The notes under the pieces: model-generated
The model's input: the letters and a program-made list of their open reading frames with translations, nothing else
Databases searched by the model: none
What the model was told of the DNA's origin: nothing
Made by a program: the position numbers and the translations under genes
Shown: positions 17,938 to 42,001 of the stretch, piece after piece
Position numbering within the stretch: position 1 is the first letter of the stretch
How the letters are laid out: every line of letters begins with the position of its first letter
DNA from: Lysobacter helvus
GTDB taxonomy: Bacteria; Pseudomonadota; Gammaproteobacteria; Xanthomonadales; Xanthomonadaceae
Reading direction: 5' to 3'
Length of the DNA: 64,000 bases
Assembly (NCBI RefSeq): GCF_018406645.1
Contig: NZ_AP024546.1
Coordinates: 1,860,001 to 1,924,000 of the forward strand

Positions 17938-18531
17938 ATGACCGAAGCCGCCGCCCGCCAGGAACGCAATGCGCGATTGAGCGCCGAGGATTGGGCGCAG
18001 GCCGCGCTGGACCAGATCGCCGAACAAGGCGTGGCCTCGGTGGCGGTGGAACCGCTGGCCCGCAGGCTGGGCGTCACCAAGGGCAGCTTCTACTGGCATT
18101 TCCCGTCGCGCGAGGCCTTGCTGGTCGCCGCGCTGGAGCGCTGGGAGAAGGTGGAACAGGAAACGGTGTTCGGTTCGCTCGAACCCATCCCGGACCCCCG
18201 CGAACGCCTCCGCGCCCTGTTCCAGCTGGTGGCGCACGAGGCCAAGTCCCACATCATCTATTCCGAGCTGCTCAAGGTCATGGACCATCCCGCCGTGCAG
18301 CCGGTGATCGTGCGCGTCTCCGAGCGCCGCCTGGACTACCTCACCGCGTCCTTCCGCCAGGCCGGCCTGAGCCGCACCGACGCGCAGCATCGCGCGCGGC
18401 TGCTCTATTCGGCCTACGTCGGTTTCCTGCAGCTCAACCTGCAGCTGCACCAGATGAACATGCAGCACGAAGAATTCGAAGCCTATGTCGAACACATGAT
18501 GTCGACGCTGATCCCCGAGGCTTCTCCCTGA
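17938..18531 (+). CDS. TetR/AcrR-family transcriptional regulator
   Basis: The product is 197 residues. The N-terminal DNA-binding domain contains the helix-turn-helix VAVEPLARRLGVTKGSFYWH (about 38-57), the strongest TetR signature, and the C-terminal part is a helical ligand domain. It is divergent from fadE and upstream of pckG in the same direction (44-base gap). It is a likely local repressor of fatty-acid oxidation genes with an acyl-CoA or fatty-acid ligand, but the ligand is inference from neighbours. Confidence 0.92.
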   Translation: MTEAAARQERNARLSAEDWAQAALDQIAEQGVASVAVEPLARRLGVTKGSFYWHFPSREALLVAALERWEKVEQETVFGSLEPIPDPRERLRALFQLVAHEAKSHIIYSELLKVMDHPAVQPVIVRVSERRLDYLTASFRQAGLSRTDAQHRARLLYSAYVGFLQLNLQLHQMNMQHEEFEAYVEHMMSTLIPEASP

Positions 18532-20506: not shown

Positions 20507-20574
20507 CGGGTGGTCCGACCGAATTGTCGGCTGTGACATTTCGATTTTTCTCACTTACCCGTGGGGGGTATCAC

Positions 20575-27320: not shown

Positions 27321-30300
27321 ATGGCTTCCATGTCCAATGGCTTGAAGCGAAGCGCGCTGACCGTTGCCCTCGGTCTGTGCTTCGTTGGCGGCGTCTCGGC
27401 CCAGACCAACACCGCGGGTTCGGTGTCCGGTTCGGCGGCTGCGGGCGACACCATCACCGTCACCAATCCGTCCACCGGCTTCTCGCGCACGATCACGGTC
27501 GGCGCCGACGGCCAGTACCGCTTCTCCTCGCTGCCGATCGGTCAGTACACCGTGACCCGTAACGGCGGCAGCCCGCGCACCGCCAACGTCAGCGTCGGCA
27601 CGTCCGCGAACGTCGACTTCGTCTCGTCCGCTGCCACCGGCACGCAGGACCTCGGCACCGTCGAAGTCATCGGCTCCGGCGCGGTCAACCCGATCGACGT
27701 CTCGTCGGTCGAGTCCACCACCATCCTGACCTCCGAGCAGATCGCGAAGATCCCGGTCGCCCGCGACACCACCAGCGTCGCGCTGCTGGCCCCGGGTACC
27801 GTCCGCGGCGACGCGGCGTTCGGCAACCTGGCTTCGTTCGGCGGTTCGTCCGTCGCCGAAAACCAGTACTACGTCAACGGCTTCAACATCACCAACTCGT
27901 TCCGCAGCCTGAACTTCTCGAACGTTCCGTTCGAAGCGATCCAGGAACAGCAGATCAAGACCGGTGGTTACGGCGCCGAATTCGGCCGTTCGCTCGGTGG
28001 CGTGGTCAACCAGATCACCAAGCGCGGTACGAACGACTTCCACGCCGGCGGCAGCATCTTCTACACGCCCGAATCGCTGACCGAAGACGTCAAGAACACC
28101 TATTACTCCAACCCGCTCGCGTGCGGTTCCAACGGCCTTGGCTGCTCGATCGGTCGCCTGCGCCAGGACAACACGCGTGACTCGGCGTGGAACGCCGTCG
28201 CCTCCGTGTGGGCCAGCGGTGCGCTGATCAAGGACAAGCTGTTCGCCTACGGCCTCGTGTCCTTCCGCCGCCAGGAAGCCGACACCTGGGGCAGCGTGGT
28301 CGCCAACACCAACACCAGCGCCACGACGGACACCCCGGCCTGGTTGTTGAAGATGGACTGGAACATCACGGATGCGCACATCCTTGAGTTCACCGCGTTC
28401 TCCGACAAGCAGGAAACCGACACCGACGTGTACCGCAACACGGTGTACACGAACGTGGCCGACCAGCGCATCGGCAACCTCGATCGCCTGAACCTGATCG
28501 GCACGAACTTCACCGAGCAGGGCGGCGACAACTACGTCCTGAAGTACACCGGCTACCTGACCGACAACTTCACCCTGTCGGCCCTCGCCGGCCACGGTGT
28601 GTTCTCGCGCGCGCAGCACCTGCGTACGGCGGCCGGCCAGGAAGTGTCCTACGGCGGCAACCTCGCCGTTCCGGCCTCGGGCTGCCCGGTCATCGTCGAC
28701 GCGCGTCCGGCCCTGCGCCAGTCGCAGACCGGCACGATCACCAGCTCGTGCAACATCACCGGCGCCGCGATCTCGCGTTCGGACTCCGAAGACACCCGCG
28801 ACCAGTACCGCATCGACGCCGAATGGCAGCTGGGCGACCACCTGCTCCGCTTCGGTTACGACGTGGACAACTTCGAGTCCGTGGCCGGTACGTCGACCGA
28901 AGGTGGTCGTACGTGGCGCTACTCGACGCTCGCTTCGGGCCAGGACATCGTCCGTGAGCAGATCGTCAACCAGGGCTCGACCAACGCCGTCGACCAGACC
29001 GCGTTCTACATCCAGGACTCCTGGAACGTCACCGACAACTTCATCGCCTACCTCGGCGCCCGCTGGGATACGTTCGAGAACAAGAACGGCTTCGGCGAGA
29101 CCTACGTCAAGATCGACAACCAGTTCGGTCCGCGCCTGGGCTTCTCGTGGGACGTCAACGGCGACTCGACGTTCAAGGTGTTCGGTAACGCCGGTCGCTA
29201 CGCGCTGCCGCTGACCTCCGACGTCGCCACCCGCGGCGCCTCGGCTTCGGTCTTCACCCGCCAGAACTTCAACTTCACGAGCATCGATCCGGTCACGGGC
29301 GCCCCGCAGGGCCTGACGGCGCGCGGCCCGCTGACGTTCATCAACGGCGAGTTCGGCTCGGCGAAGACGGCGCAGACGATCGCGTCGCAGAACCTCGACC
29401 CGATGTACCAGGACGAGTACATCCTGGGCATGCAGATGGCGCTCAACGAGCACTTCTCGCTCGGCGTTCGCGGCATCTTCCGTGACCTGAAGGCGGCCAT
29501 CGACGACAACTGCGACTACTCGCCGATCTACAACGCGGCCGTGGCGCAGGGCCTGTCCCCGGTCATCCCGAACCCGGGCTTCCCGTACTGCCGCATCTTC
29601 AACCCGGGCTCCGACGCGGTTTACATCACCGACGTTGAAGGCGACGGCATCCTGCGTTCGTTCACGATCCCCGGCGACCAGCTGTCGCCGAAGGCCAAGC
29701 GTACGTACTCGGCGATGGAGTTCTTCTTCGACGGCAACTGGGACAAGTTCTTCCTCCAGGGTTCGTACACCTACGCCAAGTCGAAGGGCAACACCGAAGG
29801 CGGCGTGAAGTCCGACATCGGCCAGCAGAACACCAACACCACGCAGGACTTCGACTACAAGGAACTGACGGTCGACACGTACGGCTACCTGCCGAACGAT
29901 CGCCGCCACACCTTGAAGCTGTTCGGCAACTACGAGATCACCGACCAGTGGTCCGTGGGCGCGAACCTGCTGGTGCAGTCGGGCCGTCCGCTCAACTGCT
30001 TCGGTACGCTCGACCTGAACCCGCTGCCGCCGGTCCTCGTTCCGGCCACGCCGGCGACCCCGTCGGCCGACGGCCAGAACGTGCAGACGCCGAACTTCAC
30101 GCCGCACCCGTACGGCTCGTCGTTCATGCGTTGCGGCACGACGTTCCGCGGTGGCACGGTCGACAACACCGTCGTCCGTCGCCCGCGTGGTACGGCTGGT
30201 CGCCTGCCGTGGACCACCAACCTCGACCTCAACGTTGCATGGCGTCCGGCGTTCGCCGAAGGCCTGCAGTTCAAGGTCGACGTGTTCAACGTGATGAACT

Positions 30301-30431
30301 CGCAGAAGGTCACCTCGGTCATCGAGACCGCGGAAGACCCGACCACGGGCCTGCCGGCCGACAACTACCTGTTGCCGGCTTCGTTCCAGGCGCCGCGTTC
30401 GCTGCGCTTCATGGTCCAGTACGACTTCTAA
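27321..30431 (+). CDS. Oar-like TonB-dependent receptor, paralogue 3
   Basis: This 1036-residue protein has a signal peptide (about 1-26, ending GVSAQ), carboxypeptidase-regulatory-like domain (about 27-105, TITVGADGQYRFSSLPIGQY), plug (about 115-240, NQYYVNGFNITNSF and GGYGAEFGRSLGGVVNQITK) and a barrel ending RFMVQYDF. GGGGGG precedes the ATG. Compared with receptor 2 it uses noticeably more GGT and CGT codons, a pattern often seen in highly expressed genes, so it may be the dominant paralogue. It is followed by a strong terminator and then, after 63 bases, by two sulfotransferase genes. Substrate unknown. Confidence 0.93.
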   Translation: MASMSNGLKRSALTVALGLCFVGGVSAQTNTAGSVSGSAAAGDTITVTNPSTGFSRTITVGADGQYRFSSLPIGQYTVTRNGGSPRTANVSVGTSANVDFVSSAATGTQDLGTVEVIGSGAVNPIDVSSVESTTILTSEQIAKIPVARDTTSVALLAPGTVRGDAAFGNLASFGGSSVAENQYYVNGFNITNSFRSLNFSNVPFEAIQEQQIKTGGYGAEFGRSLGGVVNQITKRGTNDFHAGGSIFYTPESLTEDVKNTYYSNPLACGSNGLGCSIGRLRQDNTRDSAWNAVASVWASGALIKDKLFAYGLVSFRRQEADTWGSVVANTNTSATTDTPAWLLKMDWNITDAHILEFTAFSDKQETDTDVYRNTVYTNVADQRIGNLDRLNLIGTNFTEQGGDNYVLKYTGYLTDNFTLSALAGHGVFSRAQHLRTAAGQEVSYGGNLAVPASGCPVIVDARPALRQSQTGTITSSCNITGAAISRSDSEDTRDQYRIDAEWQLGDHLLRFGYDVDNFESVAGTSTEGGRTWRYSTLASGQDIVREQIVNQGSTNAVDQTAFYIQDSWNVTDNFIAYLGARWDTFENKNGFGETYVKIDNQFGPRLGFSWDVNGDSTFKVFGNAGRYALPLTSDVATRGASASVFTRQNFNFTSIDPVTGAPQGLTARGPLTFINGEFGSAKTAQTIASQNLDPMYQDEYILGMQMALNEHFSLGVRGIFRDLKAAIDDNCDYSPIYNAAVAQGLSPVIPNPGFPYCRIFNPGSDAVYITDVEGDGILRSFTIPGDQLSPKAKRTYSAMEFFFDGNWDKFFLQGSYTYAKSKGNTEGGVKSDIGQQNTNTTQDFDYKELTVDTYGYLPNDRRHTLKLFGNYEITDQWSVGANLLVQSGRPLNCFGTLDLNPLPPVLVPATPATPSADGQNVQTPNFTPHPYGSSFMRCGTTFRGGTVDNTVVRRPRGTAGRLPWTTNLDLNVAWRPAFAEGLQFKVDVFNVMNSQKVTSVIETAEDPTTGLPADNYLLPASFQAPRSLRFMVQYDF

Positions 30432-30457: not shown

Positions 30458-30490
30458 GACGGCCGCCCCTCGGGGCGGCCGTCTTTTTTT
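30458..30490 (+). terminator. Terminator of receptor 3
   Basis: GACGGCCGCCCC pairs perfectly with GGGGCGGCCGTC around a very short loop (the innermost pair or pairs probably open), followed by seven Ts. AGTCGCGTGACA (30442-30453) precedes it, as at receptor 1. Confidence 0.92.
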
Positions 30491-30553: not shown

Positions 30554-32116
30554 ATGCAGCAGGAACTGGAGCGCCGATGGCAGCGCGCGCAGGCCGACGA
30601 GGCCCGCGGCGACCTGGCCGCCGCGCGCGCGGAATACACCGGGATCCTCGCGATCGCGCCGCGCCAGCCGATGGTGCGCCTGCGCCTGTCCGACATCGCC
30701 GAACGCGAAGGCCGCTATCGCGATGCACGCGACGAGGCCATCGCCGCCGCCCAACTGGTCCGCGACACGCGTCGCTTCGAACTGCTGCCGTTCGCCACGC
30801 TGCGCCTGCTCGGGTTCGACGAACGCGACCTGGTGCGTGACCTCATCCTCGGCGCCGACTGGTCGCAGCCTGCCGTGCTCGCGCAATCGGCCGTGCTCTC
30901 GCAACACCTGTGGCTGGTGGAAGACGCCGATTCGGCGCTCCGCCTGCTCGCCGCGGCGATGCCGCGCACGCAGCCGCATCCGTTGCTGCATTACTCGCGC
31001 GCCAATGCGTTGCGCCATGCCGGCCGTCTCGATGAAGCCACGGCGGAGTTCGAGCGCACGCTCGCCTTGTCGCCCGACGATCCCTACGCGCACTGGTCGC
31101 TGGCCTACCACGCGAAGGCCGTGCCGCCCGGCAGCCGCGTCGCGCGCGTGCGCAAGGCGCTCGGGCACGCACGCGAGCCCTTCGCGCAGGCCAACCTCCA
31201 GTACGCCCTGTTCAAGGAACTCGACGACGCCGGCGACACCGACGCGGCGTGGGAGGCATTGACCGCCGGCGCGCGCGCGATGCGTGGCCTGCTGCAGTAC
31301 GACGATGCTCGGGATGCCGCCGGCATCGCCGCGCTGCAGACCCTCGAGGCGGTGCCTGCGCCGGCATCGGAAGCCGCCACGCGCACGCCGATCTTCATCG
31401 TCGGCATGCCGCGCACCGGCACCACGGTGCTCGAACGCATCCTCGGCAACCACAGCCACGTGGCGAGCGCGGGCGAACTCAATGCGTTCCAGCATGCGTT
31501 GTCCGTCGCCGCGGACCGCTTCGTCGCCACGCCGCAAACGCGCGAAGACGTTGAGGCGTTGCGCACGATCGACTTCGACGTCGCCGGCGCCGAGTACCTG
31601 CGTCGCACGCAACGCCTCTACGGCGAACGCACGCACCTGGTCGACAAGAACCCGCTGAACGTCTTCAACGCCGCTTGGATCGCACGGGCGTTGCCGCAGG
31701 CGCGCATCGTGTGCCTGGTGCGCGATCCGATGGACGCGTGCTTCTCCAACCTAAAGGAACTGTTCTCCGGCGACACCTACGGCTACAGCTACGACCTGCG
31801 CGAACTGGCGGCCCATGCGCTGCGGTTCCGCGCGCTCGTCGCGCACTGGGAGCGCACGTTGCCGGGCCGCTTCCTGGCGGTGCCGTACGAAGCGCTGGTG
31901 GCGGAGCCGGACGCGACGAGCGCCGCGGTGCTGCGCTTCTGCGGACTGGATGCGGAAGACGGCGTCGCCGACATCACGCGCAACACCACGACGTCCTCGA
32001 CCGCCAGCAGTTCGCAGGTGCGCGAGCCGATCCACGCGCGCGGCATCGGCGCGTGGCGACGCTACGAACGCCAGCTGGCCCCGCTGGCCGATGCGCTGGG
32101 CGAGGGCAGGGCATGA
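30554..32116 (+). CDS. TPR-containing sulfotransferase 1
   Basis: The product is 520 residues. The N-terminal half (about 1-265) is helical with TPR-like repeats (ALRHAGRLDEATAEFERTLA, about 152-171). The C-terminal half is a PAPS-dependent sulfotransferase, with the 5'-phosphosulfate loop IFIVGMPRTGTT (280-291), the conserved DKNPLNVF, and the 3'-phosphate-site region ARIVCLVRDPMDACFSN. It transfers sulfate to an unknown acceptor. The ATG at 30554 has only a weak ribosome site; a TATGCT -10-like element lies at 30518. Its stop overlaps the next gene by 4 bases (ATGA). No signal peptide is present, so it is presumably cytoplasmic. Confidence 0.88.
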   Translation: MQQELERRWQRAQADEARGDLAAARAEYTGILAIAPRQPMVRLRLSDIAEREGRYRDARDEAIAAAQLVRDTRRFELLPFATLRLLGFDERDLVRDLILGADWSQPAVLAQSAVLSQHLWLVEDADSALRLLAAAMPRTQPHPLLHYSRANALRHAGRLDEATAEFERTLALSPDDPYAHWSLAYHAKAVPPGSRVARVRKALGHAREPFAQANLQYALFKELDDAGDTDAAWEALTAGARAMRGLLQYDDARDAAGIAALQTLEAVPAPASEAATRTPIFIVGMPRTGTTVLERILGNHSHVASAGELNAFQHALSVAADRFVATPQTREDVEALRTIDFDVAGAEYLRRTQRLYGERTHLVDKNPLNVFNAAWIARALPQARIVCLVRDPMDACFSNLKELFSGDTYGYSYDLRELAAHALRFRALVAHWERTLPGRFLAVPYEALVAEPDATSAAVLRFCGLDAEDGVADITRNTTTSSTASSSQVREPIHARGIGAWRRYERQLAPLADALGEGRA

Positions 32117-33672
32117 GCGCGAACCTCCAGGCCGATCCGCTCTGGCGGCAGGCGGAACTGCACGCCAGCCGGCGCGAATGGCCGCAGGCGATCGCGCACT
32201 TCGAAGCGTTGCTCGCGCGTGCGCCCAACGATGCGCGCGTGCTCGTGCAACTGTCGTACGTCGAATCGCTCGCCGGCCACTATCGCGCCGCGCGCGCGTA
32301 CGCGCTGCGTGCGAACGACGCCGGGCCGCGTGATCCTGCGATCGTGCGCGAACTGGTCGCGCGCCTGCGCACCTTCAATGCGGCCCAGGCCCTGCATGCC
32401 TGCGTGCAGCGCCTCGGCCCCGCGGACCGCGTGCCGATCCCGCTGCTGCTCGCGTGCGCGGCGCAGTACAGCTACCTCAACGAACAGGAGCGCGCGCTTG
32501 CGCTACTGGACGAAGCGAAGCGCGGCGATCCCGACTTCCCGCCCACGCTGCTCGCGCGATCGCAGGTGCTGATGTACCTGGGCCGGTTCGACGAAGCGCA
32601 GGCCGACGCATTGCGCGGAACGCAGCGCGCGCCGGAAATCCCGCAGGGGTGGTGGCTGCTCTCGCGCCTGCGCAAGCAGACGCCGGACGACAACTGCGTC
32701 GATCCGATCCGCCGCGAGCTGCGGCATCCCGCGCGCAAGCCGGCGGAGATCGCCACGCTCGCCGAAGCGCTGCACAAGACGCTCGACGACCTCGGCGACC
32801 ACGCCGGCGCCTGGGCCGCGCTCGAACAGATGTGCAAGGCCAAGCGCGCCACGCTCGACTATCGCGCGCAGGACTCGCGCGACCTCGTCGATGCGCTCAT
32901 CGCCATGCCGGCCTCGCCGTGGCCGCTCGATGTGCAGGCGCAAGGCCGCACGCCGATCTTCATCGTCGGCATGCATCGCTCGGGCACCACGCTGCTCGAG
33001 CATCTGCTGGACGGCCATCCGGAGGTACGCGGCGTCGGCGAGCTGTACGACTTCACCAGCCAGATGCGCTACGCCACCGACCACCATTGCCGCGGCGTCA
33101 TCGATCGCACGATCGTCGAGCGCGCGCCGGGCACGGCGTTCGAAAGCGTCGGCGCCGGCTACCTGCGCGAGATGGAATGGCGGTTGGGCACGGAGCGCTG
33201 CTTCACCGACAAGCTGCCGTCCAACTTCCTCAACATCGGCTTCATCTGCCGCGCGTTGCCGCACGCGCGCATCCTGCACATGGTGCGGGACCCGATGGAG
33301 ACGTGTTTTTCGAACCTGCGCGAATTGTTCTCCGACGCCAACCCGTATTCGTACGACCAGCGCGAGCTCGCGGACTTCCACCACCAGTACCGGCGCCTCA
33401 TGGCGCATTGGCACGCCGCGCATCCCGGCCGGATCTGCGACGTCGACTACGCGCGCCTGACGCGCGAGCCCGATGCGGTGCTGCGCGAAGTGACGGCGTT
33501 CTGCGGACTGGAGTTCGATCCGGGGATGCTGGCGCTCGGCCAGCGCAAGCGCGGCGTGGCCACCGCGAGCGCGGTGCAGGTGCGACAGAAAGTCGAAGCG
33601 CGCGAGGTGCCGAAATGGGCGCCGTATGCGCAGTGGCTGGGACCGTTGCGGGAAGCGCTCGCCGTCGGATGA
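32113..33672 (+). CDS. TPR-containing sulfotransferase 2
   Basis: The product is 519 residues and is a diverged paralogue of the preceding protein. TPR-like helices fill about 1-270. The sulfotransferase domain has the PAPS loop IFIVGMHRSGTT (282-293), DKLPSNFLNIG and ARILHMVRDPMETCFSNLRE. The ATG overlaps the stop of sulfotransferase 1, so the two are made together and may work as a pair on one substrate. N-terminal TPRs usually bind a protein partner, which favours a protein or protein-bound acceptor over a small molecule, but this is inference. Confidence 0.88.
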   Translation: MSANLQADPLWRQAELHASRREWPQAIAHFEALLARAPNDARVLVQLSYVESLAGHYRAARAYALRANDAGPRDPAIVRELVARLRTFNAAQALHACVQRLGPADRVPIPLLLACAAQYSYLNEQERALALLDEAKRGDPDFPPTLLARSQVLMYLGRFDEAQADALRGTQRAPEIPQGWWLLSRLRKQTPDDNCVDPIRRELRHPARKPAEIATLAEALHKTLDDLGDHAGAWAALEQMCKAKRATLDYRAQDSRDLVDALIAMPASPWPLDVQAQGRTPIFIVGMHRSGTTLLEHLLDGHPEVRGVGELYDFTSQMRYATDHHCRGVIDRTIVERAPGTAFESVGAGYLREMEWRLGTERCFTDKLPSNFLNIGFICRALPHARILHMVRDPMETCFSNLRELFSDANPYSYDQRELADFHHQYRRLMAHWHAAHPGRICDVDYARLTREPDAVLREVTAFCGLEFDPGMLALGQRKRGVATASAVQVRQKVEAREVPKWAPYAQWLGPLREALAVG

Positions 33673-33693
33673 CGCGGCGCGGTGCAGGGACGC

Positions 33694-34542
33694 TTAGAGG
33701 TCCTGCTCGTACCGGACGTACGGGATGGTGCCTTGCTCGTCGGACGTCGCCGGCGCCGCGAACGGATTCTTGCCGCGCGTGACCACGTTGTCCGCGCCGA
33801 CCGTGAGCTGTCCGCTCCACGGCGTGCGCCAGGTGAAGCCGAGGCCGAGGCCCTGCCACTGGCCGCCCGGTGCACCCGGCACGTCGATGACGCGACCGAT
33901 GATGTTGCCGCTGAAGTGGCCGTAGCCGCCGCCGAGCGTGACGCTGTGCGTGTTCCAGCGATCGGCGAGTTCCGGCACGTCGGCCGCGGACACGATGCGT
34001 GCCTTGGCGACGGTGCCGCCGATGGTGACGAAGCCTTCGCGACCGATGGTCTTTTCGCCGGAGACGGTGACGTCGTGTTGTTCGACCCTGCCGCGCGCGG
34101 GGCTGAGCCAGGCCGGCAGCGTTTCCTGCGAAGCACCGACCGTCAGGCCGACGCGGCCGCCATTGCGGCTGAAGCCGGTGGTGGCGTTGATGCGGTGGTT
34201 GTCCGACGACGCGGCGTCATCGCCCATCGATGCGAGCAGGCAATGATTGGCGAGGTTGCCGATCGCACTCGACACACCCGACTTGCGATCGCACAGCAGG
34301 CCGAGCGAATCGCCGGCACCGAGACCGAACGCGGCATCGAGCGCGCCTTCGCTGAAGCGGCGGCGCACGCCGACCGAAGCGTCCGCGGGTTCGAGCAACA
34401 GCACCGCTTCGACCTTGCCGCTTGCCTGGTTCCAGATCGGCAGCTGCATGGTGTCGTCTTTCTTCGCCTGCGCATGCACGCCCGCCGACATCGCGAGGGC
34501 GAGGAATGCAGTGAAAAGGCGGAGGCGGGACGGCTGTCGCAT
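33694..34542 (-). CDS. Predicted outer-membrane beta-barrel protein, function unknown
   Basis: The product is 282 residues with a signal peptide (about 1-24, ending GVHAQ). The rest alternates polar and hydrophobic residues with Gly-rich turns (GGRVGLTVGASQ, THSVTLGGGYGHFSGNIIGR) and ends in VRYEQDL, all consistent with an outer-membrane barrel. I recognise no named family; it resembles hypothetical proteins conserved in xanthomonads. The start at 34542 is the point where the signal peptide begins. A TTGTTA-N17-TAGGAT promoter precedes it. It is convergent with the sulfotransferase operon. Confidence 0.75.
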   Translation of the reverse strand: MRQPSRLRLFTAFLALAMSAGVHAQAKKDDTMQLPIWNQASGKVEAVLLLEPADASVGVRRRFSEGALDAAFGLGAGDSLGLLCDRKSGVSSAIGNLANHCLLASMGDDAASSDNHRINATTGFSRNGGRVGLTVGASQETLPAWLSPARGRVEQHDVTVSGEKTIGREGFVTIGGTVAKARIVSAADVPELADRWNTHSVTLGGGYGHFSGNIIGRVIDVPGAPGGQWQGLGLGFTWRTPWSGQLTVGADNVVTRGKNPFAAPATSDEQGTIPYVRYEQDL

Positions 34543-34597
34543 GGCGCGTGTCTGACCCGGTACCCCGGGCGAAGTTCCTTTTTCGGTCTTGGTGGGA

Positions 34598-34626
34598 ATC
34601 CTATTCCGTTTATGTTTCTTTAACAA
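34598..34626 (-). promoter_or_regulatory. Promoter of the outer-membrane gene
   Basis: On the minus strand, TTGTTA (34621-34626) and TAGGAT (34598-34603) are spaced by 17 bases, giving a leader of about 50 bases. The -35, including the following AA, matches those of the TonB receptors. Confidence 0.6.
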
Positions 34627-34639
34627 TCGCCCCACGGTG

Positions 34640-34673
34640 AAAAAACATCCCGGGACCCGCGATCCGGGTCCCG
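34640..34673 (-). terminator. Terminator of hslO
   Basis: A perfect 9-bp stem (CGGGACCCG/CGGGTCCCG) with a 5-base loop is immediately downstream of the hslO stop. On the minus strand it is followed by GGATG and six Ts. Confidence 0.8.
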
Positions 34674-35609
34674 TTATTGCAGCCGGTCGGGGGCCGGCAT
34701 CGGCTCGGAGGCCGCGGGTTCGAACAGCCCCGCGATGTCCTGCCCCGAGAACGAATACCCCTGCCCACAGAACTCGCAACGCACGTGGGCGTGCCCGTCG
34801 GCCACGGCCGCTTCGGCTTCTTCCCGGCCGAGGGACTGGAGCATCGCCTCCACCCGGCCGCGGGAGCACGAGCACCCGAAGGCGAGGTCCTTCCCGGCCA
34901 GCACCTCCGGCGCCTCCTCGTGGAACAGGCGGTGCAGCAGGACCGGCCCGGGCACCGCCAGCAGCTCGTCCTGCCCGAGGGTGTCGAACAGGGCCGAGGC
35001 GCGCGTCCAGCCGTCCGCGTCGCCCTCGTCGCCCGGAAGCTTCTGCAGCATCAGGCCGGCCGTCCGCTCGCCGTTGGCCGCCAGCAGGAGGCGGGTGGGC
35101 AACTGCTCGGACTGGACGAAGTAGTGCTCGAACGCGGAGGCCAGGTCGTCCCCCACCAGAGGGACCAGCCCCTGGTAGCGCTGGGGGTCGCGCCCGTGGG
35201 GGGAGGGGTTCTCGATCGTGATGGCCAGGATCGGCTCCGGTCCCAGGTCGGCCAGGCCCTGCGGCGGCGGGGCGTCTTCCTGCAGCTGCGCGATCCCGCG
35301 CAGCGTGCCGGCCGCGGTGCATTCGGCGAACAGGGTGCGCAGCGTGCCCGTGCCGCGCAGCTGCACCGACAGGCGTCCTTCGACCTTCGCGTGGCCGGTG
35401 AACAGCGCCGAGGCCGCGCTCGCCTCGCCCAGCAGGCGCGCGATGGACTCCGGGTAGTCCGCCCGCGAACGGATCTGCTTCCACGTCTCGTCCAGGTGCA
35501 CCAGCACGCCGCGGACGCCCGCCTCGGGCAGGAGGAAGCGCGTGAGGTGGTCGTCGCGGCCAACGCGGGCGTCGGCCTGGGCGGGAGCGTGCGTCATGGA
35601 TTCGATCAT
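34674..35609 (-). CDS. hslO: Redox-regulated chaperone Hsp33
   Basis: Hsp33 is activated by oxidative unfolding and prevents protein aggregation. The product is 311 residues, slightly longer than E. coli Hsp33. The C-terminal redox switch has four zinc cysteines in the order CSCSRG then CEFCGQGY, with about 30 residues between. The N-terminal core includes GVRGVLVHLDETWKQI and AIARLLGEASAASALF-like helices. I start at the ATG at 35609 (MIESMTHAPAQ); a second ATG at 35597 is possible. Divergent from mtgA. Confidence 0.93.
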   Translation of the reverse strand: MIESMTHAPAQADARVGRDDHLTRFLLPEAGVRGVLVHLDETWKQIRSRADYPESIARLLGEASAASALFTGHAKVEGRLSVQLRGTGTLRTLFAECTAAGTLRGIAQLQEDAPPPQGLADLGPEPILAITIENPSPHGRDPQRYQGLVPLVGDDLASAFEHYFVQSEQLPTRLLLAANGERTAGLMLQKLPGDEGDADGWTRASALFDTLGQDELLAVPGPVLLHRLFHEEAPEVLAGKDLAFGCSCSRGRVEAMLQSLGREEAEAAVADGHAHVRCEFCGQGYSFSGQDIAGLFEPAASEPMPAPDRLQ

Positions 35610-35703
35610 GGAAGACCCGTCGTGAAATGCGGATGCGTGGGCGCGCCAGTGGATAATGCGCGCCGCCCGCGCCGCGGGAAAACATCGGAAGAAGGACAAC
35701 GCC

Positions 35704-36477
35704 GTGCGAAATGGGGACGCCCGCCCGCCGAAGCAAGCGCGCACGCGCAAGCGGCGCCTCCTGCGCTGGATGCTCCTGCTGCCGGTGTGCTTCGTGGTAC
35801 TGACGACCCTGCAGGTGCTGCTGCTGCGCTTCATCGACCCGCCCTTCAGCGCCTTCATGGTCGCGCGGCAGTTCGAAGCGATCGGGCAGGGCGACTTCGG
35901 CTATCGCATGGGTCATCGCTGGGAGGACCTCGAGGACATGTCGCCCTCGATCCCCGTCGCGCTGGTGGCGGCGGAAGACCAGAACTTCGCGAGCCACCAT
36001 GGCTTCGATTTCCTGGCGATCGAAAAAGCGCGCGCGCACAACCAGAAGATGGCCGAGCGCGCCGAACAGCGCGGCACGCCCGTCAAGCGATTGCGCGGGG
36101 CGAGCACCATTTCGCAGCAGACCGCCAAGAACCTGTTCCTCTGGAGCGGCCGCAGTTACGTGCGCAAGGGCCTGGAGGCCTGGTACACGGTGCTGATCGA
36201 AGCGCTGTGGCCCAAGCGCCGCATCCTGGAGGTGTACGCGAACATCGCCGAGTTCGGCGACGGCACCTACGGCGCGCAGGCCGCGGCCGTGCGCTTCTTC
36301 AACAAGGACGCTGCGCGCCTGTCGCCCGCGGAGGCCTCGCGCCTGGCCGCGGTGCTGCCCAACCCGCGCCGCTACGACGCCGGCCGCCCGGGGCCCTACA
36401 TCCAGCGCCGCAGCAACGCCATCCAGCGCCAGATGCGCCAGCTCGGCGGCGGCGCGTGGGTGCGCACGCTGGACTAA
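35704..36477 (+). CDS. mtgA: Monofunctional peptidoglycan transglycosylase
   Basis: MtgA polymerises lipid II into glycan strands at the inner membrane. The product is 257 residues from the GTG at 35704. A basic N-terminus and one membrane helix (about 22-44) precede the glycosyltransferase-51 domain. Motif 1 is [18 protein letters not shown], with the catalytic Glu in [22 protein letters not shown] and [20 protein letters not shown] are motifs 2 and 3. The GTG is chosen because AGAAGGA lies just upstream; an ATG at 35656 in frame has no ribosome site. Confidence 0.94.
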
Positions 36478-36487
36478 CATTGCCGGC

Positions 36488-37543
36488 ATGGATGCCCATC
36501 TCCCCACGGACGACGCCCGCCGCGATCCGCGATTGACCGTCGTGGTCGCCGCCTTCGACGAAGCCGACGCCCTGCCGCTGCTGCAGCCGCGCATCGCCGC
36601 GGTGCTCGACGCGCTTGCGCACGACGCCGGCATCGTCGGGCGCGTGCTCTACATCGACGACGGCAGCCGCGACGCGACGTGGCAGGTGCTGCAACGCCTC
36701 GCCGCGCAGGATCCGCGCATCGCATTGCTGCGGCTGTCGCGCAACTTCGGCAAGGAAGCCGCGCTCACCGCGGGCCTGGACCACATCGAATCGGGCGCGG
36801 CGATGATCCTGGATGCCGACGGCCAGGATCCGCCGGAACTCATCCCGCAGTTCGTCGCCAAGTGGCGCGAAGGCTTCGACGACGTCCACGGCACGCGCAT
36901 GGCGCGCGAAGGCGAAAGCCTCGCCAAGCGCGCCACCGCCCACATGTTCTATCGCGTGATCGGCCGCCTCTCGCGCACGCCCATCCCGGCCGACACCGGC
37001 GACTTCCGCCTCCTGTCGCCGCGCGCGCTGTCCGCGCTGCGGCAACTGCGCGAACGCAACCGTTTCATGAAAGGCCTGTTCGGCTGGGTCGGGTTCCGCC
37101 AGGCCTCGATTCCCTACCAGCGCCAGGCGCGCGCCGCCGGCGGCAGCAAGTTCAATTTCTGGAAGCTGTGGAACCTCGCGATCGAGGGCATCACCGGCTT
37201 CTCCACCGCGCCCCTGCGCGTGGCCACGTACGTGGGCCTGGCCACCGCGTTGCTGGCCTTCCTCTACGGCGCCTGGATCGTCGTGAAGGCGATGCTCTGG
37301 GGCGACCCGGTCGCGGGCTGGCCCACGATGATGGCGGTGATCCTGTTCCTCGGCGGCATGCAGCTGATCGCGCTGGGGACGCTGGGCGAATACCTCGGCC
37401 GGTTGTACGAAGAGGCCAAGCAGCGCCCGCTCTACCTCGTCGACGCCTGGCGGCCGGCCGCGGGAGTATCCTCGGCCCAGCCGCCGACGGAGGGACACGA
37501 CGATGCGCACGGTCCGCCACCTGCTCGAATCGAAAACGCCTGA
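36488..37543 (+). CDS. GtrB/DPM-like family 2 glycosyltransferase
   Basis: The product is 351 residues. The GT-A domain (about 15-240) has VVVAAFDEADALPLL, the DxD-type IDDGSRDATW and LDADGQDPPELIP, and GNFGKEAALTAGLDH-like sequence typical of polyprenyl-phosphate glycosyltransferases. Two C-terminal helices (about 235-260 and 275-300) anchor it, with LGTLGEYLGRLYEEAKQRPLY after the last helix. It likely loads a sugar onto undecaprenyl phosphate for later transfer to a surface glycan; acceptor and sugar are unknown. Its 3' end overlaps the CBS gene by 41 bases. Confidence 0.87.
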   Translation: MDAHLPTDDARRDPRLTVVVAAFDEADALPLLQPRIAAVLDALAHDAGIVGRVLYIDDGSRDATWQVLQRLAAQDPRIALLRLSRNFGKEAALTAGLDHIESGAAMILDADGQDPPELIPQFVAKWREGFDDVHGTRMAREGESLAKRATAHMFYRVIGRLSRTPIPADTGDFRLLSPRALSALRQLRERNRFMKGLFGWVGFRQASIPYQRQARAAGGSKFNFWKLWNLAIEGITGFSTAPLRVATYVGLATALLAFLYGAWIVVKAMLWGDPVAGWPTMMAVILFLGGMQLIALGTLGEYLGRLYEEAKQRPLYLVDAWRPAAGVSSAQPPTEGHDDAHGPPPARIENA

Positions 37544-37931
37544 GGTCTACGCCATCGGGCCCGACCAGCCGGTCCTCGAAGCGATCAAGCTGATGGCGGA
37601 AAAACGCATCGGCGCACTGCTGGTGATCCAGGGCGGCCGCCTCGTCGGCATCGTCTCCGAGCGCGATTACGCGCGGAAGGTCGTGCTGCAGGGCCGCGCG
37701 TCGTCCGATACGCCGGTGCGCGACATCATGTCGTCCGACGTCGTGCGCGTGGGCCTGTCCGACACCACCGCGCATTGCATGCAACTGGTCACCGACAAGC
37801 GCATCCGCCACTTGCCCGTCGTCGACGGCGATGCGGTGCTGGGCGTGGTGTCGATCGGCGACCTGGTGAAAGCCGTGATCGAAGACCAGCAGGTCGAGAT
37901 CGACCAGTTGCAGCGCTACATCGCGAGCTGA
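37503..37931 (+). CDS. Two-CBS-domain protein
   Basis: The product is 142 residues, essentially a tandem CBS pair (about 8-65 and 75-130). VLEAIKLMAEKRIGALLVI and KRIRHLPVVDGDAVLGVVSI are the repeated CBS signatures. Stand-alone CBS pairs bind adenine nucleotides or other ligands and often act as regulators. GGAGGG precedes the ATG inside the 3' end of the glycosyltransferase gene, and the two genes overlap by 41 bases in different frames, suggesting coupled expression. Confidence 0.9.
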   Translation: MRTVRHLLESKTPEVYAIGPDQPVLEAIKLMAEKRIGALLVIQGGRLVGIVSERDYARKVVLQGRASSDTPVRDIMSSDVVRVGLSDTTAHCMQLVTDKRIRHLPVVDGDAVLGVVSIGDLVKAVIEDQQVEIDQLQRYIAS

Positions 37932-37961
37932 CGTCCGAAGCGCGGGCTTGGCGGGCGCGAC

Positions 37962-39971
37962 CTACTTCGCGTACTTCCCGCCGCACTGCACGTCCTTGCC
38001 CGGCCCGAGTTCGATCGTTGCCAGCAGCGCCGCCGGCGGCGTGATCGTGGCCAGCGACAATGCGATCGCGCCACGCAGTCCCACGCGCTTGAGGTCCGGA
38101 CGGAACGAGGGATCCTTGAAGGTGCCGCCCACGAGCAGCGGCGAGCGGAACGCGAACAGGCTGCGATCCTTCGGCCGCGGCCGCAGGTGCAGGTCGAGCG
38201 TTTCGTCGCGCAGGTTGACGCTGCCCTCGCCGACGATGAGCGTGTCGGTCGTGTCGAAGGCCAGCGACTGCGTCGTCATCACGCCGTTCCTGACCTCGAA
38301 GTCCGCGAACGCGCAGCGGATCGGGATGCGCCGGTCGCCTTCGACGAGGAACTTCAACGCTTCGGCGATATCGATGCCCGCGTATTCCATCAGCAGGTTG
38401 CTGATCTGGCCGTGGCCCATGCCGAGTTGCGCGGTGCCGTTCGCCGAACCGAGCATCTTCGCGATCGAGTTGCCCGTGCCGGTGATGTGGATGTCGCCGC
38501 CGACGCGGCCGACCGCTTCGCGCATCACGTCCGATTCCGGCAGCAACTGCGGCAGGCTGAGGCCGCGCACCTGCATGTCGGCGCGCGTGTGGATCGGCGA
38601 TTCGCGCGCATCCATGCGGATCGTCGAACGGATGTCGCCGCCGGCCACGCCGAAGTTCAGCGGATCCAGGCGCAGCAGGCCCGCATCGATCAACAGGTGC
38701 GCATCCATGTCGTCGAGCGGCAGCTTCGGTGCGTTGATGCGATGCGCCTTCCAGCGCACGTCCGCATCCATCGCGCGGAGTTTGTCGAGTTCGTAGGGCT
38801 TGTCGGGCAGCACGCGCGTCTTCGCGCGTTCCTGCGCCGCCTTCGCCGCTTGTTCCGCCGTCGCGGTTTCGCCCGCGCCCGCGGCGGGCGGCTTGCCGAC
38901 GAAGCCCGCGAGGTCATCGAAGTCCAGGCGCTTGGAGACGAGCGTCGCCTTGAGGATCGGACGCTTGCGGCCGGTTTCGAAACTCGCGTCGCCGCCGAGG
39001 TCGCTGTCGCCGAGCTTCCCGGTGAAATCGTCGTAGTGCCAGATGTTGCCGGTGTCCTTCGTGCCCGTGCGGCTGGTGGGCGTCTGTTCGCGCGTGAAGC
39101 GGCCATCGAACGAATACGGCGGTGAATCCGGCGCGGCGATGCCGAGCAGCGGATACAGGTCGGCGAGGTTCTGCCCGGCCAGCGCGAGCTTGAGGTTGAA
39201 GCCGCGCAGGCGGAACGGGTCGAGCAACGTGCCGCGCGCATGCGCCCGCGTCGTGCCGGCGGTGACGTGCACGTCGATGCGATACGGGTGCGTGGTTTCG
39301 CGCAAGGCGAGCGGCGTTTCCGCGCGCCCGTCGAGCTTGAACTTGCGGCCTTCCCAACGCCCGCCACCATCGGCCAGCACCGGCGGCGCCTTCGACGACG
39401 GATCGCGCAGGTCGCTGTGCACGGCGACATCGATGTCCGTGTTGCGCGACGCATCGAGGAAGCGCAGGCGTCCATCGTCGATCCACAGTGCGCCGTATTG
39501 CGTCGTGTCCGTCGACGCTTCGCCGAACACCCAGTTGCCCGTGTGGCCGGGGCCGTATTCCAGGCGCATGCGCGGCTTGCGCAGGCGGATCTCGGGCAGG
39601 CGATATTCGCGATGGAAGAGCAGCGGCTTCAGTTCGATCGCGAACTGCAGGCAATCGGCCGACACCATCGTCGGCTCCTTCGACCAACTGGCATTGCCGA
39701 ACGTGAAGGCGCCGACCTGCACCAGCGGCGTCCATCCGAAGCGATCGACATCGAGGTTGCCGATGATGTGGAACTTGCGCCCCGTGCGCGCTTCCACCTG
39801 GCGTTCGACCAGCGGCTTGAACCAGTTCCAGTCCCAGAACGCGAGCAGCAACGCGATGCCCACCGCCAGCACGCCGAGCACCGTGAGGAACGGATGCCGC
39901 GCGAGCGGGGCGAGCGGGCCGCCGCGCGCGAGGGGGCGGGGCGCGTCGGGATCGGACTTGGGGGTGGCCAT
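37962..39971 (-). CDS. AsmA-family envelope protein
   Basis: The product is 669 residues. It has a cytoplasmic leader, one membrane helix (about 27-46) and a long periplasmic part with the AsmA N-terminal region (GRKFHIIGNLDVDRFGWTPL) and C-terminal AsmA_2-like domain (MGHGQISNLLMEYAGIDIAE). AsmA-like proteins are thought to bridge inner and outer membranes and move phospholipids or help outer-membrane protein assembly. It is monocistronic here. Start is the ATG at 39971. Confidence 0.88.
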   Translation of the reverse strand: MATPKSDPDAPRPLARGGPLAPLARHPFLTVLGVLAVGIALLLAFWDWNWFKPLVERQVEARTGRKFHIIGNLDVDRFGWTPLVQVGAFTFGNASWSKEPTMVSADCLQFAIELKPLLFHREYRLPEIRLRKPRMRLEYGPGHTGNWVFGEASTDTTQYGALWIDDGRLRFLDASRNTDIDVAVHSDLRDPSSKAPPVLADGGGRWEGRKFKLDGRAETPLALRETTHPYRIDVHVTAGTTRAHARGTLLDPFRLRGFNLKLALAGQNLADLYPLLGIAAPDSPPYSFDGRFTREQTPTSRTGTKDTGNIWHYDDFTGKLGDSDLGGDASFETGRKRPILKATLVSKRLDFDDLAGFVGKPPAAGAGETATAEQAAKAAQERAKTRVLPDKPYELDKLRAMDADVRWKAHRINAPKLPLDDMDAHLLIDAGLLRLDPLNFGVAGGDIRSTIRMDARESPIHTRADMQVRGLSLPQLLPESDVMREAVGRVGGDIHITGTGNSIAKMLGSANGTAQLGMGHGQISNLLMEYAGIDIAEALKFLVEGDRRIPIRCAFADFEVRNGVMTTQSLAFDTTDTLIVGEGSVNLRDETLDLHLRPRPKDRSLFAFRSPLLVGGTFKDPSFRPDLKRVGLRGAIALSLATITPPAALLATIELGPGKDVQCGGKYAK

Positions 39972-40046
39972 CCGTGCGCGGTTCTCCGGGGGAACCCCAC
40001 CATCCGCAGGGCGCGGTCGAAGCCCGGTGAATGCGTTGCGCCGCGT

Positions 40047-40712
40047 TCAGTCCCGCGGCCACACCTGCGCGAGCACCGCGATGTAGTGGCACACGGTGCC
40101 GGCCACGACGAACAGGTGCCACACCGCGTGCGAATAGCGCATCGACGGCCGGTGGTAGAACACCGTGCCCAGCGTGTAGGCCACGCCGCCGGCGATCAGC
40201 CAGCCGAAGGTCCAGCCATCCAGCGCCGCCATCACCGGGCGGATGGCCAGCAGCACGAGCCAGCCCATCGCGACGTACACGGCGGTGGACAGCAACCGGA
40301 AGCGCCCGGTGAAGAAGAACTTGAACACGATGCCCGCCGCGGCCAGCGACCAGATCGCGATGAAGAGGTTGCGGCCCACGTCGCCGCGCAGGCCCACGAG
40401 CGTGAAGGGCGTGTACGTGCCGGCGATCAGCAGGTAGATCGCGCAATGGTCGAACACCTTCAGCGCGGACTTGGCGCGTGGCGAGGCCATCGCGTGGTAC
40501 AGCGTGGAGGCCACGTACAGCAGCAGCATCGACAGCGAGAACACGATCGCCGACGCGAGCTGCCAGCCATCGCCGTGCAGCGCGGCCAGCGTGACCATCA
40601 CGATGCCGCCGGCCAGCGCCGCGAGCGCCCCGAACCCATGGGTCACCGCGCTGGCGAATTCCTCCCGCAAGGCGAGCGGGGACAGGGGCGCGTCGGTCGA
40701 GGGGCGGTCCAT
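40047..40712 (-). CDS. trhA: TrhA/hemolysin III-family membrane protein
   Basis: The product is 221 residues with seven membrane helices of the PAQR/hemolysin III type. Conserved residues are visible in EEFASAVTHGFGALAA, VASTLYHAM, FDHCAIYLLIAGTYTPF and YSHAVWHLFVV, which hold the family's His and Asp metal ligands. E. coli YqfA/TrhA has been linked to membrane energetics and lipid homeostasis rather than to haemolysis. Confidence 0.9.
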   Translation of the reverse strand: MDRPSTDAPLSPLALREEFASAVTHGFGALAALAGGIVMVTLAALHGDGWQLASAIVFSLSMLLLYVASTLYHAMASPRAKSALKVFDHCAIYLLIAGTYTPFTLVGLRGDVGRNLFIAIWSLAAAGIVFKFFFTGRFRLLSTAVYVAMGWLVLLAIRPVMAALDGWTFGWLIAGGVAYTLGTVFYHRPSMRYSHAVWHLFVVAGTVCHYIAVLAQVWPRD

Positions 40713-40785
40713 GCGCCGAGCCTGCGCCCGCGGGGCTGGAGCTTTTGCTCCTGGCGCCGCCCGGGCTCGCTAGACTTGCCCCCGC

Positions 40786-41409
40786 ATGATCATTTCCCAC
40801 CAGCACCGTTTCATCTTCGCCGCCGTGCCGAAGACCGGCACCCACTCGGTCCGCCAGGCCCTGCGCGAACACACCGGGCCCGACGACATCGAGCAGGTCG
40901 GCCTGTTCGTCGACAAGCGCTTCCCGTGGTCGGACCTGGCCGCATTGCGCCACGGGCACATCAGCCTGCGCCAGGTGCGGCCCTACCTCGGCGACGAGGC
41001 CTTCGCGCGGTATTTCAAGTTCGCGTTCGTGCGCAATCCGTTCGACCGCTTCGTCTCGTACTGCGCCTTCATGACGCGCAACGACGATCGCTTCGCGCGC
41101 GAACCGCAGGCGGTGATGCGCCAGGTGCTGTTCGACCTGCGGCCGCTCGAACACGTGCTGTTCCAGCCGCAGCACACCGTGCTGGTCGACGATGCCGGCG
41201 CGCTGCTCACCGATTACGTCGGCCGCGTGGAAGACATGCAGGCGTCCTACGACACCATCTGCGACCGCATCGGCATCCCGTCGCGCACGCTCGAACAGGT
41301 GAACAGCTCGCGCCGCGGCGACTACCGCCAGTACTACGACCGCGCGCTCATCGATGGCGTCGCCGCGCTGTATCGCCGCGACCTGGAGTTGTTCGGCTAT
41401 GCCTTCTGA
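40786..41409 (+). CDS. Sulfotransferase family 2-like protein
   Basis: The product is 207 residues. The PAPS 5' loop is FIFAAVPKTGTHSVRQAL (about 9-26) and the 3'-phosphate-site motif is FAFVRNPFDRFVSYC. This is the compact carbohydrate/protein-type sulfotransferase fold and differs from the TPR proteins at 30554-33672. No signal peptide is present. The gene overlaps the hydroxylase-like gene by 11 bases, so the two are translationally coupled. The acceptor is unknown. Confidence 0.85.
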   Translation: MIISHQHRFIFAAVPKTGTHSVRQALREHTGPDDIEQVGLFVDKRFPWSDLAALRHGHISLRQVRPYLGDEAFARYFKFAFVRNPFDRFVSYCAFMTRNDDRFAREPQAVMRQVLFDLRPLEHVLFQPQHTVLVDDAGALLTDYVGRVEDMQASYDTICDRIGIPSRTLEQVNSSRRGDYRQYYDRALIDGVAALYRRDLELFGYAF

Positions 41410-41997
41410 CGCGCGCATGGTGCCCGGCAATCCGCGCAAGACGCTGTCGGTGCGCGACCTCGGCACCGTCGACATCACCGCGTTGCGCGACGCCGTGCTC
41501 GCCATCCCGGATGCCTTGTGGGATGCGGAAAACGCGAGCAAGCCCAACAAGTTCGAAGCGCTCGACCGCACGCGCCACATCGTGTTCCGCTTCGTCGACA
41601 GCGTGCGCGACTGGCGCGGCTCGCACGACCGGCCGCTGTGGGCCGACTGGCGCGCGCTGCTGCAGCCGGTGATGGACGCAGCGACCAAGCCCTATGGCTA
41701 TGCGCGCGCCACGTTCCCGCGCGTGATGCTGGCGCGCATGGCGCCGGGCGGCATCATCCATCCGCACGTCGACGCCAATCCCGCCGCGAGCTGGCCGCAC
41801 AAGATCCACGTGCCGCTGCTCACCAACCCGCAGGTCGGGTTCCTCATCGGCGAGCGCGTGTACCACTTCCCAGAAGGCCGCGCGGTGGAGGTCAACAACC
41901 TCGGCCGCCACGCCGTGCGCAACGACGGCACGACCGATCGCATCCACCTGATCTTCGAATACTTCGACGAAGACCAGCCGGCGCCGCCGCCCATCGC

Positions 41998-42001
<4 letters not shown>
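41399..42001 (+). CDS. Aspartyl/asparaginyl beta-hydroxylase-like 2OG-Fe(II) enzyme
   Basis: The product is 200 residues. The iron site is suggested by H123-x-D125 in IIHPHVDAN and His171 in [11 protein letters not shown], followed by [10 protein letters not shown], a pattern of the Asp/Asn beta-hydroxylase fold that also includes LpxO. It would use 2-oxoglutarate and oxygen to hydroxylate a protein Asp/Asn or another acceptor. The ATG at 41399 lies inside the 3' end of the sulfotransferase and has GGAG 11 bases upstream; an ATG at 41417 is an alternative. The stop overlaps the convergent prfC stop. Confidence 0.82.

Follow-up and report, generated by a model that had tools for sequence, protein, structure and literature searches.

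A recurrent partnership between genes for TonB-dependent receptors and TPR-sulfotransferases, traced from a locus of Lysobacter helvus

The 64,000-nucleotide stretch of DNA analysed here (the window; positions 1860001–1924000 of the 3.27 Mb single-contig genome of Lysobacter helvus) encodes three Oar-like TonB-dependent receptors (TBDTs), OarA, OarB, and OarC, followed by two sulfotransferases carrying tetratricopeptide repeats (TPRs), referred to as ST1 and ST2. Comparison with other genomes reveals a strong gene-level partnership between TBDTs and TPR-sulfotransferases, in which the conserved moving unit is the receptor plus the sulfotransferase. We tentatively propose, with a confidence a little short of even, that ST1 and ST2 are dedicated to the adjacent Oar-like receptors and would sulfate the receptor precursor in the cytoplasm before export. 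In what follows, G-numbers denote relative genomes and L-numbers denote fetched loci or sequences that were compared with the window.

A preliminary description of the window had placed two TPR-sulfotransferases 3' of three TonB receptors, and Pfam and gene calls show this arrangement to be real. All five genes lie on the forward strand. OarA (20575–23646, alternative start TTG at 20524; PF25183 1.6e-24, CarboxypepD_reg, and Plug), OarB (23974–27018; PF25183 2.6e-20 and PF00593 1.4e-12), and OarC (27330–30431, alternative start at 27321; PF25183 3e-23), the receptor nearest ST1, show the features of the Oar-like class, i.e. an N-terminal CarboxypepD_reg domain, a plug, and a large PF25183 barrel; a separate Plug match was obtained for OarA only, and CarboxypepD_reg lies marginally below the Pfam cut-off in OarB and OarC. 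ST1 (30554–32116; PF13469 E 3.9e-47 plus TPRs) and ST2 (32113–33672; PF13469 E 2e-46 plus TPRs) have reading frames that share 4 bases.

The frequency of receptor–sulfotransferase adjacency was assessed in 80 regions, taken as sets of 20 and 60 from the top of the ST2-match ranking (own genome and 59 relatives), with the window added and L123 left out for lack of a TPR-sulfotransferase; there is overlap between L093 and L094 and orthology among many of the regions. As controls, we used 40 random regions of the same genomes, two of which (L153 and L177) held a TPR-sulfotransferase and were dropped, leaving 38 that include two overlapping pairs. Distances run between stop-to-stop reading frames and are therefore slightly below gene-to-gene distances. 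The profiles used for receptors and oxygenases were iterated on the same loci, which favours detection there; seven receptors were checked with Pfam. Of the 80 regions, 50 have a TBDT frame within 200 bp of the TPR-sulfotransferase frame and 62 have one within 5 kb, compared with 3 of 38 controls containing a TBDT anywhere and 1 of 38 containing one within 500 bp of the region centre (50/80 at 200 bp versus 1/38 at 500 bp of the centre, Fisher p 6e-11). From the number of PF00593 matches (19 in the L. helvus genome, 71 in G010), we estimate that adjacency within 500 bp would arise by chance in about 4–7% of cases. Chance is excluded as the cause of the adjacency.

We also grouped 204 TPR-sulfotransferases by single-linkage clustering. 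With clustering at 50% identity, 35 of 69 clusters had a TBDT within 500 bp of some member and 28 of 69 had one in the majority of members; at 60% identity, the numbers were 64 and 60 of 134, respectively. At 40% identity nearly all sequences merge into one giant cluster, and the counts become 3/9 (any member) and 2/9 (majority). A second set comprised 79 named loci from GTDB genomes, which are the best of 533 relatives, are biased to near kin, include some short contigs, and in at least three cases (L192, L210, and L246) repeat genomes of the first set. A TBDT was present within 200 bp in 36, within 500 bp in 44, and within 5 kb in 51 of these 79 loci. Among the genera represented at the 500-bp limit are Xanthomonas, Lysobacter, Steroidobacter, Pseudidiomarina, Salinimonas, Glaciecola, Paraglaciecola, Haliea, Caulobacter, Phenylobacterium, Kordiimonas, and Stakelama. 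We take the 44 linked loci to belong to the Lysobacterales, Alteromonadales, Halieaceae, Caulobacterales, Sphingomonadales, and Kordiimonadales, plus Steroidobacter and a Marinimicrobia metagenome-assembled genome (MAG).

Within the window, the receptors and sulfotransferases are flanked on the left by genes for a TetR regulator (17938–18531, +) and a GTP-type phosphoenolpyruvate carboxykinase (PEPCK; 18617–20374, +), both assigned by Pfam and synteny, and on the right by two reverse-strand genes, for a 265-residue exported protein without a Pfam family (33694–34491, convergent with ST2) and for an Hsp33-like protein (34674–35609). According to gene calls and Pfam, the interval from PEPCK to the Hsp33-like gene holds the receptors, ST1, ST2, and the exported protein, and nothing else. 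The labels Hsp33/hslO, mtgA, GT2, CBS, AsmA, hlyIII, and prfC used for neighbouring genes are those that we presume from their sequences. In 23 genomes or loci, a relative of the exported protein is encoded close to a TPR-sulfotransferase, which shared synteny probably explains in most cases.

The preliminary description held that nothing except position links the enzymes to the receptors, and had named a conserved neighbourhood in related genomes as a test. Such a neighbourhood was found, and it recurs at different places in the genome and is statistically strong, so that the earlier reservation no longer applies. Among the matches listed, the best match to ST2 is 53% identical or more in 10 of 59 relatives, the next genome reaching 42%, and the best match to OarC is 60% identical or more in those same 10 relatives, the next genome reaching 45%. 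Receptors and ST1/ST2-type enzymes stand beside the exported-protein and hslO genes in G001–G004, G012, G020, and G027, with PEPCK on the far side of the receptors where the fetched stretch reaches that far (G001, G012, and G027). The unit also occurs at other sites, as OarC-ST1-ST2 in G030 and G014 and as Oar-ST2 in G022. Conversely, the TetR/PEPCK–hslO site of G009, G017, G019, G022, and G025 holds a receptor of another family together with a TPR-sulfotransferase and 2-oxoglutarate (2OG)-Fe(II) oxygenases of the PF13640 and/or PF13759 type (assigned by Pfam for some and by profiles for the rest); no PEPCK was called in G022, and the hslO side was not reached in G019. Loci with such different-receptor sites are L049, L050, L051, L052, L055, and L097, and L050 additionally carries an extracytoplasmic function (ECF) sigma factor. 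In a tree of 69 Oar-like entries, 23 cassette receptors fall in one clade and the other 40 entries outside this clade are unlinked.

The genome of L. helvus carries five PF13469 matches, namely ST1, ST2, L038, L036, and L037. L038, at about 365.6 kb, is a TPR-sulfotransferase directly beside another TBDT (PF00593 1e-34; 826 residues; the unit spans L038:6845–11446), and 13 other loci are alike, forming with it a 14-locus clade in which the sulfotransferase lies upstream on the same strand, 0–17 bp from the TBDT frame. The units have relocated, involve more than one receptor family, and remain taxonomically widespread after clustering, which shows that the adjacency goes beyond inherited gene order.

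ST2 consists of a helical TPR part (residues 1–263) and a sulfotransferase domain (approximately residues 279–519), and its AlphaFold2 model has a predicted local distance difference test score (pLDDT) of 95 and a predicted TM-score of 0.93. When the catalytic domain alone was compared with solved chains, the nearest were tyrosylprotein sulfotransferases (TPSTs; 8w5z 4e-21, 5wrj 1.5e-18, and 3ap1 8.5e-18), followed at a distance by CurM (5e-12), heparan 3-O-sulfotransferase (8e-5), and cytosolic sulfotransferases (3e-3). Foldseek searches with the ST2 model ranked TPST-2 first, the TPRs of SPINDLY and O-GlcNAc transferase (OGT) also ranking high; the top matches include 3ap1, 5wri, and 9wwe with probability 1.00, and the TM-score by target length is 0.55–0.66 for the listed TPST chains. 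OGT and SPINDLY are among the top fold and profile matches of the TPR part. Arg289, Glu310, Lys367, and Arg392 are invariant across 57 sequences. Arg289 belongs to the 5'-phosphosulfate-binding (5'-PSB) motif and Arg392 to the 3'-phosphate-binding (3'-PB) motif for 3'-phosphoadenosine 5'-phosphosulfate (PAPS), both of which align with the TPST motifs, and Glu310, located between them, aligns with a Glu of the TPST "GEET" stretch, which we take to be the catalytic base of TPST2, the roles of the other residues being likewise presumed. An adenosine 5'-phosphosulfate kinase is present in the genome as a supply of PAPS, and no signal peptide was recognised by eye at the N-termini of ST1 and ST2. 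Based on these features, the ST1/ST2-type enzyme appears to be catalytically competent, located in the cytoplasm, and suited to a protein or peptide substrate. The TPST-like catalytic domain combined with an OGT-like TPR superhelix makes such a substrate likely and bears out the earlier suggestion that the TPR domains point to a protein partner.

The closest solved counterparts of ST1 and ST2 are thus the human TPST1/2 and tick TPST structures (3ap1, 5wri, and 8w5z), which share the aligned and invariant 5'-PSB, Glu, Lys, and 3'-PB positions, whereas ST1 and ST2 are bacterial, seem to lack a signal peptide, and have a TPR part of about 260 residues fused in front. OGT and SPINDLY resemble ST2 in having a TPR superhelix ahead of a transferase domain, but their transferase domain is unrelated, as it transfers glycosyl rather than sulfuryl groups. 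RaxST, which is not known to have TPRs, provides a bacterial comparison. According to PMC6637879, RaxST of Xanthomonas, whose model is based on TPST2, is a tyrosylprotein sulfotransferase acting on the RaxX precursor ahead of processing and secretion, and the sulfation of a precursor before secretion is what the present proposal has in common with it. ST1 and ST2 differ from the RaxST system in their TPR part, in having a TonB-dependent receptor as partner, and in that no RaxX-like precursor gene was recognised; likewise, no RaxA/RaxB-type export genes occur beside ST1 and ST2 in the interval from PEPCK to the Hsp33-like gene.

The ATG of ST1 lies 122 bases past the OarC stop codon, or 65 bases when the alternative TTG start is used. 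The preliminary description had put ST1 63 bases after the third receptor. A strong intrinsic terminator (30458–30483, +; 11-bp stem, 4-base loop, and T7 tail) lies in between. A hairpin with a T-run separates the receptor from the first sulfotransferase in 10 of 11 cassettes examined (the window, L040–L043, L045, L046, L048, L188, and L205), with differing stem sequences; in the exception, L189, the hairpin is present without a T-run of four. The short gap therefore does not imply a single transcript, and a plain OarC-ST1-ST2 operon was rejected because the conserved terminator speaks against it. The layout would fit an abundant receptor and a scarce enzyme. When the gaps within the cassettes of L. 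helvus and G002–G004 (106–411 bp) were compared, only short matches appeared, in several frames and on both strands, as conserved DNA gives, and no clear short gene was found in them, which is still compatible with a very short precursor.

In addition to sulfotransferases, 2OG oxygenases recur at these loci. Of the 80 regions, 14 have an oxygenase within 5 kb of the TPR-sulfotransferase, as do 9 of the 79 named loci but none of the 38 controls (14/80 versus 0/38, Fisher p 0.0045, with profiles built on the same loci). Compact enzymes of the PF05118 type adjoin TPR-sulfotransferases in L258, L263, L236, and L192, and that of L263, a Halieaceae MAG, has a TBDT within 0.1 kb. Near TPR-sulfotransferases and TBDTs, there are also PF05118 hydroxylases that carry fused TPR repeats (L053:11775–12956 and L120:11475–12923). 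The earlier idea that receptors may be hydroxylated thereby gains some general support from other genera.

A related coupling is described in passages of PMC11870441, according to which the Caulobacter TBDT CciT, when the adjacent cytoplasmic 2OG dioxygenase CciO is missing, reaches the membrane but does not support iron uptake, and CciT/CciO and PiuA/PiuC-type pairs are widely co-conserved in Proteobacteria. OarC and ST1/ST2 resemble these pairs in that the genes for a TBDT and an enzyme are adjacent and co-conserved; dependence of the receptor on the enzyme has been shown for CciT/CciO. Unlike CciO, ST1 and ST2 are PF13469 sulfotransferases and not 2OG/Fe(II) dioxygenases. Oxygenases join the unit in some genera only, and the window's own oxygenase, about 11 kb downstream of OarC, belongs to a separate module.

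According to our proposal, the OGT-like TPR superhelix would hold an unfolded protein or peptide for the TPST-like active site, whose 5'-PSB Arg, catalytic Glu, and 3'-PB Arg would sulfate a hydroxyl side chain, most plausibly that of a tyrosine. Sulfation would precede export, with ST1 and ST2 acting in the cytoplasm with PAPS, and the likeliest substrate would be the receptor precursor. Sulfate on the mature extracellular loops could then favour or prevent the binding of particular ligands. We favour this reading because receptor and sulfotransferase form the moving unit, no other non-housekeeping family except the oxygenases was recognised by eye among their recurrent neighbours, and the gaps contain no clear gene. 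In a broader form, which we regard as possible but on balance doubtful, TBDTs of many Alpha- and Gammaproteobacteria would be sulfated, probably on tyrosine, by adjacent, dedicated TPR-guided TPST-like enzymes, with additional hydroxylation by neighbouring 2OG oxygenases in some genera, which would constitute an undescribed class of modification before export. The preliminary description had envisaged a system modifying surface proteins or surface-glycan precursors. The tie of the TPR-sulfotransferases to receptors stands, whereas no evidence for glycan-precursor substrates was seen, and neither sulfate nor hydroxyl on any receptor was evidenced in this sequence-based analysis.

Several observations weigh against the proposal. 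No TBDT was present in the fetched stretch of 18 of the 80 regions and 28 of the 79 named loci, including all five Mesorhizobium loci, and two TPR-sulfotransferases of the own genome, L036 (1391 kb) and L037 (70.4 kb), have no TBDT in the 20 kb fetched. The orientation of receptor and sulfotransferase varies, with 23 convergent and 10 divergent pairs among 98 (33/98), and in the Oar-like cassette the conserved terminator parts OarC from ST1. Six receptors without a linked sulfotransferase belong to the cassette clade of the tree. For the CciT/CciO precedent, PMC11870441 offers no more than a proposed substrate of the enzyme. Finally, no acceptor residue was identified by alignments and loop motifs. 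L036 adjoins a POR/DUF6537 protein, and the substrates of the L036 and L037 enzymes may differ.

Tyr928 of OarC was considered as acceptor, as it is invariant in one comparison of 15 receptors and a first alignment had it in 96% of the clade versus 0 of 14 in the sister group. A fuller alignment proved the 0 of 14 wrong. Of 37 cassette receptors (from 38 rows, the control L151 being set aside; L192 and L047 are identical in sequence), 35 have Tyr928, but it is also present in 12 of 46 unlinked rows (four of which are duplicate fragments); these 46 rows comprise 12 Tyr, 6 of them outside the clade, 19 Phe, and 15 gaps. Based on the 12 unlinked rows with Tyr, the residue was dropped as evidence. 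Acidic tyrosines are slightly commoner in the sulfotransferase-linked clade (3.5 versus 2.4–2.5 per 1000 residues). Of the linked Oar receptors, 22 of 26 have a Cys-bracketed tyrosine loop; the corresponding counts are 15 of 47 for receptors at a greater distance from a sulfotransferase in the fetched regions, 7 of 46 for unlinked Oar receptors, and 0 of 30 for generic receptors, the last being the highest PF00593 scorers, which are poorly matched controls and include one sulfotransferase-linked receptor of the own genome (L325). The loop occurs in only 5 of 72 sulfotransferase-linked receptors of other families, and these counts indicate that the linked receptor families have no motif in common. 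The predicted structure of OarC, which shows beta structure at the N-terminus and numerous long strands, is too weak for its loops to be placed (mean pLDDT 67).

Other readings were weighed as well. It is conceivable, though rather unlikely in our judgement, that the sulfotransferases serve the receptors by modifying their ligand. In this scheme, a peptide or small molecule, either secreted or kept at the surface, would receive its sulfate in the cytoplasm, be exported, and then be captured again by the TBDT. The authors of the CciT/CciO study propose that the substrate binds iron and is produced by the cell itself, possibly as a siderophore attached to its outside (PMC11870441). Moreover, Table 2 of PMC10040529, on Pontixanthobacter and Allopontixanthobacter, lists near-consecutive clusters 1738–1748 with lasso-peptide B2, PqqD, Asn synthase, two sulfotransferases, and an aspartyl beta-hydroxylase; this looks like a lasso-peptide cluster, so that elsewhere both kinds of enzyme seem to be part of a ribosomal-peptide cluster. 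However, the moving unit comprises receptor and sulfotransferase alone, and the cassette gaps offer no clear gene for a ligand precursor, a very short one apart. A census of genes within 4.5 kb, made with a gene caller trained on the window, yielded 31 clusters present in at least 5 genomes, which were read by eye and, besides oxygenases, look like synteny and housekeeping genes. No biosynthetic, precursor, or export families were recognised among these 31 clusters by eye and without a Pfam check, and there are no lasso genes in the window's cassette and none recognised by eye among the recurrent neighbours. Sulfation of an envelope component, such as lipid A or a surface glycan, with the receptors adjacent through envelope gene clustering or co-regulation, appears quite improbable. 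NodH-like bacterial sulfotransferases do act on sugars, and many TPR-sulfotransferases have no TBDT neighbour, yet the adjacency is close, focuses on a single Oar clade, and persists after relocation, glycan sulfotransferases match the catalytic domain far more weakly than TPST does, and no glycosyltransferase or lipid A families were recognised by eye among the recurrent neighbours except the glycosyltransferase family 2 (GT2) gene of the hslO synteny block. We give very little weight to the view that the adjacency is inherited synteny of one lineage without functional meaning. Many regions are indeed orthologous and lie beside the same hslO block, but the relocated units, the differing receptor families, and the wide taxonomic spread after clustering largely refute this view.

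The preliminary description had also joined the receptor-associated sulfotransferases in a single system (30554–42001) with two compact genes farther downstream, which we consider unlikely to act jointly with ST1 and ST2 on receptors. These genes encode a compact sulfotransferase (40786–41409, +; PF03567 E 5e-17, 63.3 bits versus a curated cut-off of 22), rightly called unrelated to the PF13469 enzymes ST1 and ST2, and a compact Asp/Asn beta-hydroxylase-like 2OG oxygenase (41417–42001, +; PF05118 E 1.2e-10, 41.9 bits versus a curated cut-off of 22.6). Their reported overlap holds only if the hydroxylase starts upstream of 41409; the called start at 41417 is 8 bp past the sulfotransferase stop, and relatives align from residue 4 or 5 of this start, starts at 41354 and 41399 being possible as well. 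Close relatives of both genes (69–74% identity) co-occur in 7 of 60 genomes (the own genome and 6 relatives), and the close hydroxylase occurs only where the close compact sulfotransferase occurs. Mapped pairs sit between hlyIII and prfC, some with one or two small extra genes; in G027, where the gene caller missed the pair, a similarity search places it there too.

In support of a joint system, compact PF05118 enzymes do stand beside TPR-sulfotransferases in other genera, in L263 also next to a TBDT, as described above, and relatives of the compact sulfotransferase show comparable arrangements in two distant order-mates. In G046, a 60% identical PF03567 relative lies 228 bp from a TPR-sulfotransferase (L354, 4626–7297), and in G048, a 56% identical relative is divergent from a PF05118-like gene, found by similarity search without a Pfam check, with a TBDT starting about 1.6 kb beyond (L355, 6616–13053). 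TPR-sulfotransferases are encoded in all 7 genomes that have the close pair, but at least 53 of the 60 genomes searched encode them. Against it, the pair is about 7 kb and seven genes away from ST2, these genes keeping the same order in relatives without the pair, and G002 and G003 have hlyIII and prfC adjacent and the pair cleanly absent while the receptor cassette is kept. No close match to the pair was found in any of G001–G004, the four genus mates that keep receptors and ST2. The single-system idea was rejected for the compact pair on the basis of its mapping between hlyIII and prfC, and the pair forms a module of its own, which nothing found here ties to these receptors. A PDB search with the compact enzymes gave nothing useful, and no lasso or other ribosomally synthesized and post-translationally modified peptide (RiPP) B/C maturation genes were found around the pair by homology and by eye. 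The listed Pontixanthobacter/Allopontixanthobacter clusters resemble it in having sulfotransferase and Asp-hydroxylase genes side by side (PMC10040529). That a hydroxylase and a sulfotransferase have been joined several times suggests hydroxylation and sulfation of one substrate, and the compact pair probably modifies one common substrate in both ways.

The receptor–sulfotransferase partnership was not found described in the searched literature. No description of a TPR-sulfotransferase/TonB-dependent receptor pairing was present among the full-text matches listed, a source that mostly leaves out subscription journals, and the word "sulfotransferase" is absent, by text search, from the searchable text of two TBDT surveys (PMC7142613 and PMC3400609).

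For bacterial tyrosine sulfation, RaxST/RaxX is the one established case cited here. TonB-dependent uptake receptors are entry points for phages, bacteriocins, and siderophore drugs. The receptor–sulfotransferase pair adds a second, chemically different coupling of a receptor with a cytoplasmic enzyme and thereby bears on the unexplained CciT/CciO and PiuA/PiuC pairs. If our proposal is true, sulfation would be a common proteobacterial way of tuning uptake receptors.

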